Of a DNA stretch of 5,124 bases, positions 1,712 to 4,890 are shown piece after piece (position 1 is the first letter of the stretch; each line of letters opens with the position of its first letter). The position numbers were made by a program, and so were the translations under genes. The notes under the pieces were generated by a model, which was not told the DNA's origin, made no database searches, and was given only the letters and a program-made list of their open reading frames with translations. The stretch covers positions 1 through 5,124 of the forward strand of contig JAJXXG010000898.1 in NCBI GenBank assembly GCA_021781255.1, read 5' to 3'. The stretch comes from Acidobacteriota bacterium (GTDB lineage: Bacteria; Acidobacteriota; Terriglobia; Terriglobales; Acidobacteriaceae).

Positions 1712-1743
1712 GAGCCCCGTGAAACCAATGATTATCAGGGGTT

Positions 1744-1759
1744 CGCGACCAAAGTCGCA
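1744..1759. promoter_or_regulatory. Candidate Crp/Fnr-type operator of the regulator gene (autoregulation)
   Basis: The site reads CGCGAC-CAAA-GTCGCA, with a perfect 5+5 inverted repeat (GCGAC/GTCGC). It matches the palindrome upstream of hcp at 12 of 16 positions, including all of GCGAC and GTC. It lies between the presumed -35 and -10 regions of the regulator promoter, centred about 25 bases before the likely transcription start. A protein bound there would block RNA polymerase, so negative autoregulation is inferred. Confidence 0.55.
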
Positions 1760-1764
1760 ACTGC

Positions 1765-1770
1765 TAAAAT
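1765..1770 (+). promoter_or_regulatory. Extended -10 element of the regulator gene
   Basis: TAAAAT matches TATAAT at 5 of 6 positions and is preceded by TGC, the extended -10 motif. The corresponding -35 region (about 1742-1747) is poor, which an extended -10 can offset. The predicted start of transcription is around 1777, right at the ATG at 1778. No Shine-Dalgarno sequence is present, so the mRNA is probably leaderless. Confidence 0.5.
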
Positions 1771-1777
1771 CCCTCAC

Positions 1778-2482
1778 ATGGTTACTCCGCGCACAGACAT
1801 CGCTCATATTCTTGAAGAAACCGCGCTTCTGTCGAGCCTTTCGCGATCCGAGTTGCAAATGCTGGCGTCCCGCACTGTACGCAAGCATTTTGTTTCGCGT
1901 GAATTGCTGTTCTCTCAAGATGAGCCATGCAAAGGCCTGCACATTATCGCCCGCGGTAAAGTTCGCATCTTCAACACATCTGTGAATGGCCGGGAGCAGG
2001 TTCTCGCCGTAAATGTTCCCGGCGAATCGGTTGCCGAGCTACCCGTTTTCGATGGAGGTTCCTACCCGGCCTCCGCAATGGCCATCGAGGACACAGAGGT
2101 CGCCTTCATTTCACGAGCCGACTTTCAGGCTTTCTGCATTGAGCATCCTGAAGTCGCTCTGAAGGTGCTCACTGTTGTGGGAGCGCGGCTTCGGCGCCTG
2201 GTCGGAATCATTGAAGAGCTTTCGTTCACCACGATCCGCCAGCGGCTCATTTCTGTTTTGGTGAAGCTCGCGCAGACCCAGGGTAAAAAGTCGGATCGAG
2301 GCATCGAGTTCCAACTTCCGGCGACCCATCAGGAATTGGCCAATCAGCTCGGAACCGTGCGTGAACTGATATCGAGAAATCTCATGCGGCTTCAGGCAGA
2401 AGGTTTGCTTGACGTGTATGCACGGCAGATTGTCGTGAAAGACATGAAGGGGCTGAGCGCACTGCTCGAGTCAGGCTCATAG
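1778..2482 (+). CDS. Crp/Fnr-family transcriptional regulator, HcpR-like candidate
   Basis: This 234-residue protein has normal Crp/Fnr length. Residues of about 15-125 form the cyclic-nucleotide-binding-type beta barrel, including PGESVAEL at 81-88. A long dimer helix spans about 124-165 and a winged helix-turn-helix about 180-222. The recognition helix has R195, E196 and R200, the CRP R180-E181-R185 pattern that reads TGTGA-like half-sites; FNR has Val at the first position. The N-terminal iron-sulfur cysteines of FNR are absent (only C51 and C120 occur). The phosphate-binding Arg-Ser of CRP is replaced by a Pro-Ala-Ser stretch (97-99), so cAMP is unlikely to be the ligand. The effector may be NO, possibly through haem as in DNR-type relatives, but this is inference. 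The gene converges on hcp, and both carry matching upstream palindromes, which suggests control of hcp and of itself. ATG 1778 is used because it gives the full N-terminus; translation is probably leaderless. Confidence 0.9.
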   Translation: MVTPRTDIAHILEETALLSSLSRSELQMLASRTVRKHFVSRELLFSQDEPCKGLHIIARGKVRIFNTSVNGREQVLAVNVPGESVAELPVFDGGSYPASAMAIEDTEVAFISRADFQAFCIEHPEVALKVLTVVGARLRRLVGIIEELSFTTIRQRLISVLVKLAQTQGKKSDRGIEFQLPATHQELANQLGTVRELISRNLMRLQAEGLLDVYARQIVVKDMKGLSALLESGS

Positions 2483-2491
2483 CCAATTCTG

Positions 2492-2584
2492 TAGCGGCAA
2501 CCTCCGCGGCTTGAGCGGGCGCAATCTAAGATCGTCTCCGCTCATGCCGTTATGGGCCCCGGAGGTAGGCGAATCCTGCCGCTA
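2492..2584. other. Nested inverted repeats, candidate structured RNA or fold-back DNA
   Basis: The left arm is an unbroken 27-base run that pairs in three blocks with the right side. TAGCGGCA (2492-2499) pairs with 2577-2584, ACCTCCG (2500-2506) with 2560-2566, and CGGC-T-TGAGCGG (2507-2518) with 2538-2549 around one T-T mismatch. That makes 26 pairs. The right arm is broken by two bulges of exactly 10 bases (2550-2559 and 2567-2576). The apical loop contains a further small ATC/GAT pairing. The structure starts 9 bases after the regulator stop codon and no T-run follows, so it is not a simple terminator. I recognise no known riboswitch or ncRNA family. It could be a 3'-UTR structure, a small RNA on either strand, or a decayed palindromic repeat. 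Confidence 0.5.
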
Positions 2585-2605
2585 GCCGGATCGCCAAGTT
2601 TGAGC

Positions 2606-2646
2606 AACCGCACTCCTCCAGGAAGGAACTGGGAAGGAGCGCGGTT
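2606..2646. terminator. Probable bidirectional terminator between convergent genes
   Basis: AACCGC-a-CTCCT (2606-2617) pairs with AGGAG-c-GCGGTT (2635-2646) with one A/C mismatch. An inner CCAG/CTGG stem (2618-2621 with 2629-2632) closes a 7-base loop. The hairpin begins 8 bases after the hcp stop codon as read on the - strand. On the + strand it is followed by a T-rich GATGTTTGTT. The T-tract is imperfect on the + strand and poor on the - strand, so efficiency is uncertain. The position between two facing genes supports the call. Confidence 0.55.
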
Positions 2647-2654
2647 GATGTTTG

Positions 2655-4295
2655 TTAAGCCATGATGGCGGCCAGATCAGCATCGGCCGTGGTCGTTGGC
2701 ATGAGGTTGTAGTTCTTATTGAGCAGCCCGATGACTGCCGGCGACAGGAAGGCCGGCAGCGTGGGACCAATGCGGATGTTCCTGACGCCGAGCCAGAGCA
2801 AGGTGAGCAGGATGGAGACAGCCTTCTGCTCGTACCAGCTGAGGACCAGCGAGAGAGGCAGGTCGTTGACTCCGCAGTTGAAGGCTCCGGCGAGCGCCAC
2901 GGCCACCTTGAGAGCCGAGCAGGCGTCGTTGCACTGGCCCATGTCCAGCAGGCGCGGCAACCCGCCGAGGGTTCCGAACTGCTGCTTGTTGAAGCGGAAT
3001 TTGCCGCACCCCAGGGTGAGGATCACGCAATCCTGAGGCACCTTTTCCGCGAGTTCCGTGTAGTAGTCGCGGCCCGGGCGGGCGCCGTCGCAACCGCCGA
3101 TCAGGAAGAACCGTTTGAGCGCGCCCGACTTCACGGCATCGATCACCTTGTCGGCAACGCCCAGTACGGCGGCGTGGCCAAAGCCAGTGAGAATGGTGTC
3201 GCCGGGTCCATCCTCGGCAAAACCGGGCGCGGCAAGTGCGGCGGCGATCACAGGAGAAAAGTCGGTTCCGTCAAGGTGCTTCACGCCAGGCCACTGGACG
3301 GCATTCATGGTGAAGATGCGGTCTGTGTAGCTCTGTTTGGGCTGCTGGATGCAGTTCGTGGTCATGACGATGGCGCCGGGGAATGCTGCGAACTCTTCGG
3401 CCTGGTCCTGCCATGCGCCGCCGTAGTTCCCCACGAGATGCTTGAAAGCCTTGAGCTTGGGATAGCCATGGGCGGGCAGCATTTCGCCATGCGTATACAC
3501 GTTGATGCCAGTGCCTTCGGTCTGGACGAGAAGCTGGTAGAGGTCGTGCAAGTCGTGGCCGGAGATGAGGATGGCCTTGCCCTTGACGGGATGGATGCGC
3601 AGCGGCGTGGGCACAGGTGCGCCGAAGGTCTCATTGTGTGCGCGGTCGAGCTGCTCCAGCACATTGAAGTTGAGCTCACCCACTTTGAGGGCGAATCCTA
3701 GCAGCTCTTCGACGGTGTGCTCTTCGGTCAGCGCATTCAGCAGCTCGTGGATGGCGGCGTAACTGGCGGGGGCACTGGAGCCGAGCATGGCGGCATGGTA
3801 GGCGTAGGCAGCGACGCCCTTCAGGCCGTAAATCACAAGCTCTTCGAGGTTCTTGAGCTCGGCCCCGCCGTTGGAGAACGATATATTGATGAGTTGCTCG
3901 CGGCCCTGGGCGAGAAGGCTTTCGCGATCTCGTGCAGGCTGGAAGAGTGCTGGTCCGGCCGGGTTTTCGGCTGGTTGGCCGGCCTTGGCAGCGGCTGCCC
4001 GATAGAGGTCCCTGGCGATGTCGCGAACGGCAGCGGCCTTGTAGACCAGCTCAGCGACAGAGTCGGCGTCAAAGTTGACGTTGGTAAGAGTAGCGAAGAT
4101 GGCTTCAAGGGTAAAGACATCGATTTCCGGGCTGCGGGCGCCCAGTTGCGCGGCGCGATGGGCATATTGGCTGACGCCCTTGAGAGCATGGATCAGCAGG
4201 TCTTGCAGCGTCGCCGTGTTTTCGTCTTTTCCGCAGACTCCGAGGACTTGGCAGGCCTGCCCTTGTTTAGTCTGTTCGCACTGATAGCAAAACAT
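2655..4295 (-). CDS. hcp: Hybrid-cluster protein Hcp (hydroxylamine / NO reductase), class I-like
   Basis: This complete 546-residue protein has the usual length of full-size Hcp. The N-terminal cysteines are C3, C6, C15 and C21 (C-x2-C-x8-C-x5-C), the tight spacing of class I enzymes from anaerobes; the enterobacterial type has a longer gap. All expected hybrid-cluster ligands are present: H247, E271, C315, C402 (the persulfide-bearing position), C430, C455, E489 and K491. No key residue is missing, so it should be active. Hcp enzymes reduce hydroxylamine in vitro. Their physiological role is linked to NO detoxification (NO to N2O) and protein S-nitrosylation in the cytoplasm. There is no adjacent hcr reductase gene in the window, so electrons must come from elsewhere. 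The start is ATG at 4295, with AAAGG (4305-4309) 9 bases upstream as ribosome-binding site. The gene is monocistronic here, convergent with the Crp/Fnr regulator, and preceded by a Crp-type palindrome. Confidence 0.96.
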   Translation of the reverse strand: MFCYQCEQTKQGQACQVLGVCGKDENTATLQDLLIHALKGVSQYAHRAAQLGARSPEIDVFTLEAIFATLTNVNFDADSVAELVYKAAAVRDIARDLYRAAAAKAGQPAENPAGPALFQPARDRESLLAQGREQLINISFSNGGAELKNLEELVIYGLKGVAAYAYHAAMLGSSAPASYAAIHELLNALTEEHTVEELLGFALKVGELNFNVLEQLDRAHNETFGAPVPTPLRIHPVKGKAILISGHDLHDLYQLLVQTEGTGINVYTHGEMLPAHGYPKLKAFKHLVGNYGGAWQDQAEEFAAFPGAIVMTTNCIQQPKQSYTDRIFTMNAVQWPGVKHLDGTDFSPVIAAALAAPGFAEDGPGDTILTGFGHAAVLGVADKVIDAVKSGALKRFFLIGGCDGARPGRDYYTELAEKVPQDCVILTLGCGKFRFNKQQFGTLGGLPRLLDMGQCNDACSALKVAVALAGAFNCGVNDLPLSLVLSWYEQKAVSILLTLLWLGVRNIRIGPTLPAFLSPAVIGLLNKNYNLMPTTTADADLAAIMA

Positions 4296-4333
4296 GATGA
4301 GTAGCCTTTCGGTTGATGTTGTTGGATGGATTC

Positions 4334-4339
4334 AGAGTA
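4334..4339 (-). promoter_or_regulatory. Candidate -10 element of hcp
   Basis: On the - strand this reads TACTCT, a weak match to TATAAT (3 of 6). Its centre is 32 bases from the centre of the palindrome at 4361-4376, the spacing of class II Crp/Fnr-activated promoters. Transcription would start near 4327 (an A on the - strand), leaving a leader of about 31 bases. There is no good -35 element, as expected for an activator-dependent promoter. The call rests mainly on spacing. Confidence 0.4.
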
Positions 4340-4360
4340 GAGGAGGCTGGGCGAGAAATA

Positions 4361-4376
4361 TGCGACTTAAGTCACA
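4361..4376. promoter_or_regulatory. Crp/Fnr-type operator upstream of hcp
   Basis: The site reads TGCGA-CTTAAG-TCACA, one base off the CRP consensus TGTGA-N6-TCACA, with a perfect 10-base core GACTTAAGTC. A/T-rich flanks (AAATA and ATTT) add partial symmetry. HcpR-type Crp/Fnr regulators of hcp genes in other bacteria are known to use CRP-like palindromes. The nearby regulator has the matching Arg-Glu-x-x-x-Arg recognition helix, and its own promoter carries a sister site. Activation of hcp is inferred from the placement about 41.5 bases before the likely start. Confidence 0.7.
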
Positions 4377-4661
4377 ATTTGGCTGAGCAAGCAGGACAAA
4401 ACTCAATAGCATAAGAAGTCCTTTCGCGGAGCCGTTGGCCACCCGGCGCAAGAGTACCACACGAAAGCGATGGAGAGTCTTGAGCAGCTTATCAGCGGGG
4501 GAGAGAATCGCTCTGGCCGAACACAACGCCGCTAACCTATCGCAGTCAATTTAATGACAGCGAGCTATTCTTCATTTGTTCGCCTTTGGTCGATTACGGC
4601 AATTCTCACTACAGTGCCCGTTATCGACGAAATTTGCAATTGTGTAAGTTATTGAGAATAT
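4377..4661. other. Intergenic stretch with no convincing gene
   Basis: These 285 bases lie between the hcp operator and the 3' end of tRNA-Cys. A - strand ORF with a TTG start (4526 to 4332) crosses part of it, but it has no ribosome-binding site and runs through the hcp operator and -10 region, so it is not called. I found no second Crp-type palindrome, no tRNA and no T-tailed hairpin that would end the tRNA transcript. A short CACTGTAGTG self-complementary stretch is too small to interpret. The section from about 4540 is less GC-rich than the genes around it. Confidence 0.5.
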
Positions 4662-4736
4662 TGGAGGCGCGGGCCGGGATCGAACCGGCGCATAAAGGTT
4701 TTGCAGACCTCTCCCTTACCACTTGGGTACCGCGCC
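4662..4736 (-). tRNA. tRNA-Cys (GCA)
   Basis: Read on the - strand, the acceptor arm GGCGCGG pairs with CCGCGCC, followed by discriminator T and an encoded CCA. The D arm has CCC/GGG. The anticodon arm GAGGT/ACCTT (one G-T pair) holds the loop CTGCAAA with anticodon GCA. The T arm is GCCGG-TTCGATC-CCGGC. All four stems close, so the gene should be functional. It is the second gene of a two-tRNA unit, 79 bases after tRNA-Gly. Confidence 0.97.
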
Positions 4737-4815: not shown

Positions 4816-4890
4816 TGGAGCGGGAGACGAGACTTGAACTCGCGACCCTCGCCTTGGCAAGGCGATGCTCTACCACTGAGCTACTCCCGC
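4816..4890 (-). tRNA. tRNA-Gly (GCC)
   Basis: Read on the - strand, the acceptor arm GCGGGAG pairs with CTCCCGC, followed by discriminator T and an encoded CCA. The D arm is GCTC-AGTGGTA-GAGC. The anticodon arm TCGCC/GGCGA holds the loop TTGCCAA with anticodon GCC. The T arm is GCGAG-TTCAAGT-CTCGT with one G-T pair. It is the promoter-proximal gene of the unit and reads towards tRNA-Cys. Confidence 0.97.

Follow-up and report, generated by a model that had tools for sequence, protein, structure and literature searches.

A distinct acidobacterial clade of Crp/Fnr regulators with a conserved operator and a candidate nitrosative-stress regulon

We analysed a 5,124-nucleotide (nt) stretch of DNA from an Acidobacteriota bacterium of the Acidobacteriaceae (assembly GCA_021781255.1, contig JAJXXG010000898.1; hereafter, the whole stretch is the window), which carries two convergent genes, a Crp/Fnr-family regulator and hcp, with a palindrome before each (Table 1). 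Membership of the regulator in the Crp/Fnr superfamily follows from matches to PF00027 (77.2 bits) and PF13545 (63.2 bits), and the hcp product scores 759.8 bits against its family profile (cut-off 367). An earlier note on this DNA, made from the letters alone, had described a self-contained module, in which an HcpR analogue acts on hcp and on its own gene through two related 16-base palindromes. Direct reading confirmed both palindromes, namely CGCGACCAAAGTCGCA at 1744-1759 and TGCGACTTAAGTCACA at 4361-4376, and a hand count confirmed their identity at 12 of 16 positions. Their palindromic cores are GCGAC-N4-GTCGC (1745-1758) and GCGAC-N4-GTCAC (4362-4375), and the second site reads TGTGAC-TTAA-GTCGCA in the direction of hcp. 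Each site has one mismatch to the pattern TTGYGACNNNNGTCRCAA; they are the sole window matches at that level, and none of 200 dinucleotide shuffles has one, in a test that is post hoc as the pattern was built from these same two sites. With up to three mismatches the window has three matches against 0.71 expected, a number reached in 9 of 200 shuffles. The decisive test is conservation in relatives, and its strong outcome, detailed below, leads us to regard the window operators as real.

Relatives of the regulator were gathered with an alignment-based search of genomes; of 106 relatives, the best 80 were used. These are acidobacterial without exception and come from 75 genomes, many of them incomplete metagenome-assembled genomes. 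Orthologues are present in the genomes of the cultured Occallatibacter savannae and Acidipila rosea. An hcp gene (E <= 1e-50) was found in 16 of the 75 genomes. An exact GYGAC-N4-GTCRC core lies within 150 base pairs (bp) of the gene in each of the 18 window-type hcp loci scored, among them the window itself; this set leaves out duplicates of one gene, genes lacking a start (L006, L011 and L091) and a distant paralogue of 45% identity (L093), at which no operator was found. Two further hcp loci from a wider sample of the phylum (L170 and L171) also carry the exact core. Among the sites of hcp genes more than 60% identical, these two included, a TAnnnT hexamer starts 22 or 23 nt past the core in 19 of 19; the computed operator centre is therefore at -41.5 or -42.5, the position of a class II activator. 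The polarity of the hcp sites is likewise constant: all 19 have GTGAC as their upstream and GTCGC as their downstream half. In the window, the predicted -10 hexamer TACTCT places the operator centre at -41.5 by hand count. Nine hcp genes above 60% identity have no such core (L172-L180) and belong to the comparison of two operator types taken up below.

The regulator's own promoter shows a different geometry. We scored 80 upstream regions, those of the window and of 79 of the 80 loci (L071 has no start), many of which feature CAGTGAC-YNAA-GTCRC close to the start codon, at a constant spacing from it and beside an extended -10 element, TGCTAGAAT. The core, with at most one mismatch and within 200 bp, precedes the regulator in 48 of 80 regions, and in 36 of 80, the window included, it starts 31-34 nt before the start codon. 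As TAnnnT starts 5-8 nt past the core in 36 of the 48 site-bearing promoters, the operator falls between -35 and -10, as the site of a repressor would; in the window, the predicted hexamer TAAAAT begins 6 nt past the core, for an operator centre near -25.5 (hand count). Only 6-7 nt separate TAnnnT from the start codon in 37 of these 48 loci, and hence the regulator transcript is probably leaderless.

Thus, much of the earlier interpretation is supported. In relatives with both genes the sites are kept in sequence, in position and, at hcp, in polarity, and their geometry fits the activation of hcp from about -41.5 and the self-repression from between -35 and -10 that had been predicted. The proposal that the regulator has its own GCGAC-type variant of the site stands as to a distinct conserved site, but not as to its form: the family consensus is GTGAC-YWAA-GTCGC, GTGAC being the upstream and GTCGC the downstream half, and we rejected GCGAC, a minority variant, as the consensus. 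One genome (G020; loci L020, L022 and L026) has three regulator genes and two hcp copies, with operators at both of the latter.

Table 1. Features of the window with their positions, strands and the evidence used to assign them
Feature	Position	Strand	Basis
Operator 1, before regulator, TCGCGACCAAAGTCGCAA, core 1745-1758	1743..1760	+	pattern and conserved distance to start codon in relatives
Putative -10 hexamer TAAAAT of regulator, extended -10 TGCTAAAAT, predicted leaderless transcript	1765..1770	+	prediction
Crp/Fnr-family regulator, 234 amino acids, cNMP_binding and HTH_Crp_2	1778..2482	+	domain matches, alignment, tree
Cys51 codon, Cys in 85/85 distinct aligned orthologues (one row gapped)	1928..1930	+	alignment
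Codons Cys120 (86/86 distinct orthologues) to His123 (84/86)	2135..2146	+	alignment
Recognition-helix residues R195-E196-L-I-S-R200 (CRP R180, E181, R185)	2360..2377	+	alignment
hcp, hybrid cluster protein/hydroxylamine reductase, 546 amino acids	2655..4295	-	family match
Putative -10 hexamer TACTCT of hcp, starting 22 nt past operator core	4334..4339	-	prediction
Operator 2, before hcp, hcp direction TTGTGACTTAAGTCGCAT, core 4362-4375, centre -41.5	4360..4377	-	pattern and conservation

The same operator is found before RIC/YtfE. A family search recovered a RIC match (E <= 0.001) in 75 of 75 regulator genomes, above the family cut-off in 64, and provided a test of RIC promoters without selection by site. 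From 70 of the 76 over-cut-off matches, the number given for scoring, we removed nine without a usable start and one upstream region that was too short; the remaining 60 leave out a lower-scoring second RIC type, often situated directly downstream of the regulator. A core with at most one mismatch is present in 53 of the 60 upstream regions (47 exact), against 1.5 expected from mononucleotide shuffles. In 49 of these 53, TAnnnT lies at +22 or +23 past the core, i.e., at class II activator spacing, and the polarity resembles that at hcp, with T in the upstream half of 51 and G in the downstream half of 43. RIC and hcp frequently diverge from an intergenic stretch that contains two operators (e.g., in G010, G020, G026 and G034). 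A second site near -137 of hcp in relatives at first resembled a class III site in tandem, but where ric and hcp diverge, the RIC operator is the better reading of it. In terms of gene linkage, RIC occurs in 65 of 81 regulator loci, the window included, hcp in 13 and either in 67; in 39 loci RIC follows the regulator on the same strand at a distance of at most 400 bp, and in 15 it is divergent and no more than 600 bp away. By eye, an NnrS-like frame appears to come directly after the second RIC gene in nine loci (L001, L002, L007, L015, L022, L028, L038, L041 and L074), which suggests a regulator-RIC-NnrS operon there.

Further targets came from a pattern scan of 34 of the 75 genomes, from which 40 stretches were then chosen, so that the targets found thus are examples and not a census. 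The sites precede RIC/YtfE, a NapH-like polyferredoxin of approximately 363 amino acids, an NnrS-like gene and a copper nitrite reductase, while many others fall inside predicted genes. An exact site lies before the copper nitrite reductase (NirK; TIGR02376, 311 bits, cut-off 296), a gene that was found through this site; sites at NnrS-like and NirK genes are from single or few loci. The polyferredoxin has the core with at most one mismatch in 13 of 28 upstream regions, a set partly fetched for its sites. A multi-haem cytochrome with a sub-cut-off match to hydrazine dehydrogenase (L102:1215-2480) was also noted with a site 89 bp upstream. Taken together, these promoters point to a regulon that is wider than hcp and centred on RIC. 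The idea of a self-contained hcp module was accordingly dropped: sites also occur at RIC/YtfE, polyferredoxin and a few NnrS-like and NirK genes, hcp is found in only 16 of 75 regulator genomes, and the gene most often next to the regulator is RIC.

Among 396 genomes sampled evenly across the phylum, hcp (E <= 1e-80) is present in 42 and the regulator (E <= 1e-55) in 21. Of the 42 genomes with hcp, 30 yielded loci, namely L082 and 29 further ones; 27 promoters of these 29 were scored after L187 (short) and L192 (no start) had been dropped. Two have an exact GYGAC-N4-GTCRC, 14 have an exact TTGAY-N4-RTCAA at a similar distance, and 11 have neither. The TTGAY sites display the same architecture, with TAnnnT at +21 to +24 in 13 of 14. 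The regulator was detected in all three sampled genomes with a GYGAC-type hcp promoter (G031, the source of L082, included) versus none of the 14 with the TTGAY type (Fisher p of approximately 0.0015, calculated by hand), and the two operator types show no overlap in the genomes scored. Seven TTGAY loci possess a divergent Crp/Fnr gene, whose product is 24-26% identical to the window protein over the aligned part. We term these proteins HcpR1-like, a label that rests on their site, divergent hcp and recognition helix and not on a reference sequence.

The two groups differ in the recognition helix as well. In an orthologue alignment of 94 rows, corresponding to 86 distinct proteins, R195, E196 and R200 align with the R, E and R of Escherichia coli CRP and are invariant in 86 of 86, bearing out the CRP-like pattern that the earlier note had recognised. 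At CRP position 180, 7 of 7 HcpR1-like proteins have Pro (T at site position 3) versus Arg in 86 of 86 window-clade proteins (G at that position). A correlation between recognition-helix residues and site bases has been described (PMC1274295), and the recognition helix of each group agrees with its operator in the way this correlation has it, as judged from the aligned sequences. In a phylogenetic tree, in which no characterised HcpR1 was included, the window clade and the HcpR1-like group each form one clade at 100/100, with long branches leaving the deep order unsure. The matched change of Pro versus Arg suggests that one regulator replaced the other; replacement is the evolutionary path that we infer. 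The regulator is probably not an HcpR1 orthologue, and the term HcpR analogue is right in the strict sense, for a protein that seems to do the HcpR job but belongs to a clade distinct from the acidobacterial HcpR1-like proteins.

The only cysteines of the window regulator are Cys51 and Cys120. They are conserved across the clade together with the nearby His123 (Table 1), and in the alignment they are absent from the seven HcpR1-like proteins, CRP, FNR and two plasmid relatives. The cysteines mark a candidate sensor site, with which heme, thiol or metal chemistry would all be compatible. CRP contacts cAMP via R82 and S83, the equivalents of which are Y and P in the window regulator, and the [4Fe-4S] cluster of FNR needs four cysteines, where the window regulator has two. 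An AlphaFold model (predicted local distance difference test, pLDDT, 86.7; predicted template modelling score, pTM, 0.60; other models were lower) matches Crp/Fnr structures generally, those of Porphyromonas gingivalis HcpR and DNR included; we discarded this comparison as a guide to the sensor type, as it shows the Crp/Fnr fold only and does not choose between sensors. From the target genes, the signal is most likely nitric oxide (NO) or a related reactive nitrogen species.

We therefore propose, with a probability of roughly 85%, that the regulatory part of a nitrosative-stress regulon of Acidobacteriota lies in the window. Acting as a dimer, a Crp/Fnr protein from a clade of its own would bind GTGAC-YWAA-GTCGC operators that lie near -41.5 at hcp and, in relatives, also at RIC/YtfE, the NapH-like polyferredoxin and some NnrS-like and NirK loci. 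Bound there, the dimer would act as a class II activator standing in for the -35 element; between -35 and -10 at its own, apparently leaderless, promoter, it would repress itself. NO or related reactive nitrogen species would provide the signal, and the targets probably repair nitric-oxide damage. The protein of this clade would have replaced HcpR1, which in other Acidobacteriota may serve the same hcp promoter position through TTGAY-N4-RTCAA. A more specific version is tentative, and we consider it somewhat more apt to be wrong than right: an undescribed NO-responsive clade took over the hcp promoter from HcpR1 with the -41.5 layout kept, while T became G at site position 3 and Pro became Arg at residue 180, and NO is sensed by Cys51/Cys120 and His123 through a Cys/His-ligated heme or thiol modification, not through a heme site at Met68 such as has been proposed for the HcpR of P. 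gingivalis.

Several observations weigh against the proposed regulon. Only the 48 of 80 loci given above have the core 200 bp or less from the start of the regulator. NnrS-like genes have it with at most one mismatch in only 8 of 49 upstream regions, a set partly fetched for its sites, and NnrS was too weak to keep as a general target. At the same level, it precedes 51 of 401 other genes in 80 regulator loci and 28 of 98 more genes near a regulator, hcp or RIC that were set aside, though both sets may include other targets. Across the 34 genomes scanned, the pattern is not enriched (103 forward matches versus 126 for a reversed control among the matches listed, summed by hand); the signal is therefore in the position and not the number of sites, and we abandoned genome-wide counting as uninformative. 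The genomes in the contrast of 3 versus 14 are related, and hence it does not represent 17 independent events, and it draws on 30 of 42 hcp genomes. Finally, in the wider sample, where 30 of the RIC matches listed were examined, a site with at most one mismatch precedes 9 of 25 RIC genes in genomes without a detected regulator versus 5 of 5 in genomes with one. The link is thus not exclusive at RIC, or distant orthologues were missed. Three of these nine sites read GTGACTTCCCTCAC, a type that may serve another regulator, and one (G160) is exact. RIC in four loci of genomes without a detected regulator (L271, L274, L282 and L289) has ATGACC-NN-GGTCAT-like palindromes at -77 to -79, perhaps those of another regulator.

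These RIC sites bear on the reading that the operator is that of a different regulator whose site is similar, such as a Crp/Fnr paralogue or Rex, with the linked gene a bystander. Each regulator-bearing genome has 6-24 unconfirmed Crp/Fnr-like candidates at first look, and Rex and HcpR1 share identical sites in Desulfovibrio (PMC5701242). However, the site precedes the regulator's own gene, the regulator is linked to targets in 67 of 81 loci, it co-occurs with one hcp operator type (3/3 vs. 0/14), and its recognition helix predicts the site; further, the constant C after GTGA does not fit the Rex site. We accordingly consider a bystander regulator quite improbable. That the two palindromes are chance matches has a negligible likelihood: short degenerate palindromes are common, and genome-wide counts do not exceed the control, but the conservation of position, sequence and polarity in relatives contradicts this.

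The remaining alternatives accept the operator and its regulator. The protein might be a diverged true HcpR1 orthologue and not a replacement, as it appears to have the same job, hcp promoter position and class II spacing as at the TTGAY-type promoters, and the Desulfovibrio HcpR too has a CRP-like motif (PMC1274295). We hold this to be improbable given the identity of only 24-26% to the HcpR1-like proteins and the separate clades at 100/100, whose deep order the long branches leave open. The regulator might also act as described but sense oxygen, redox state or a metabolite, with hcp and RIC in a wider response to redox or iron-sulfur damage; this is unlikely, yet it is an option to be taken seriously. 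The sensing residue is a candidate only, a disulfide or a reaction with peroxide is conceivable for the two invariant cysteines, and oxidative stress also induces the RIC of Staphylococcus aureus and Trichomonas vaginalis (PMC9268430). Against it stand a target set (hcp, RIC and some NnrS-like and NirK genes) typical of NO regulons, the lack of a four-cysteine FNR cluster, and the Y and P at CRP R82/S83. We retain the nitrosative-stress regulon as the best explanation.

The surroundings of this system in the window contain other features. Upstream of the regulator are a VWA-domain gene of the acidobact_VWFA family (390-1478) and a partial frame of similar look; the former has no homologue at E <= 1e-20 in the other loci compared. 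An inverted repeat at 1661-1708, between the VWA gene and operator 1, has 19-nt arms (GAGTCTGTTATCAACCTTC / GAAAGTTGATAACAGACTC) that are 95% complementary with a 10-nt spacer; searches with 12-15-base pieces of the arms did not find it in the other loci compared. Beyond the hcp promoter, genes for tRNA-Cys(gca) and tRNA-Gly(gcc) lie on the minus strand at 4662-4736 and 4816-4890, and a further inverted repeat (15-nt arms, 87%) at 4585-4632 is situated between them and the promoter.

Acidobacteriota are abundant in acidic soils. Literature searches on Acidobacteria with HcpR, hybrid cluster protein or nitrosative stress regulon returned no description of such a regulon in the titles and abstract openings covered. 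Several characterised systems offer a comparison. The window regulator resembles HcpR1 in being a Crp/Fnr protein, in its linkage to hcp (13 of 81 loci) and in the palindromic operator at the hcp promoter. HcpR1 of Geobacter and similar organisms recognises TTGAC-N4-GTCAA and has Ser or Pro at position 180, whereas the Desulfovibrio form has a CRP-like site, wTGTGAnnnnnnTCACAw, and Arg at that position (PMC1274295), a residue that the window clade has there too. The TTGAY form is one to three mismatches away in the 18 window-type hcp promoters, and their upstream half, GTGAC, matches the Desulfovibrio form. The window clade differs in its GTGAC-YWAA-GTCGC operator, in having RIC as its commonest partner, and in its separation at 100/100 from the acidobacterial HcpR1-like proteins, whose own HcpR1 status is itself a presumption. 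HcpR2 of Clostridia, Bacteroidales and Thermotogales is also a Crp/Fnr protein controlling hcp, but its site is GTAAC-N4-GTTAC and its residue at position 181 is Pro, Ser or Gln (PMC1274295); in P. gingivalis, HcpR depends on heme and responds to NO (PMC12750200). The window regulator has Glu196 aligned with E181 and a GTGAC site, and its Foldseek identity to P. gingivalis HcpR is 18%.

DNR/DnrD of Pseudomonas, an NO-responsive Crp/Fnr activator with the site TTGATnnnnATCAA (PMC1274295), resembles the proposed regulator in acting on ric, which DnrD positively regulates in P. stutzeri (PMC9268430). It differs in its site, as the 18 window-type hcp promoters scored have no exact TTGAY-N4-RTCAA that would accommodate the DNR form TTGAT-N4-ATCAA, and the window regulator is only 24% identical to the P. 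aeruginosa DNR structure. NsrR and NorR, which govern hcp and/or ric in a range of Proteobacteria (PMC1274295, PMC9268430), belong to unrelated protein families and have unrelated operators. A plasmid relative from Thermus thermophilus is 33% identical and is encoded near a nitrate reductase (nar) gene, adjoining that of a GAF protein, but has Pro at position 180; the Thermus Crp/Fnr protein beside nar genes is the one we take to be DnrT.

In light of these comparisons, the window regulator appears to be of a known kind but of a new clade, with a well-defined operator and a candidate regulon. The specific operator, the candidate regulon and the promoter geometry are testable in cultured relatives, and the invariant cysteines offer a handle on the sensing mechanism. 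Judged on sequence, it also makes a clear case of an operator and a recognition helix that differ together between two clades at one promoter. This natural case, in which a single promoter is apparently served by regulators of two clades whose proteins and DNA sites differ in a matched way, would allow a test of the published residue-base correlation.

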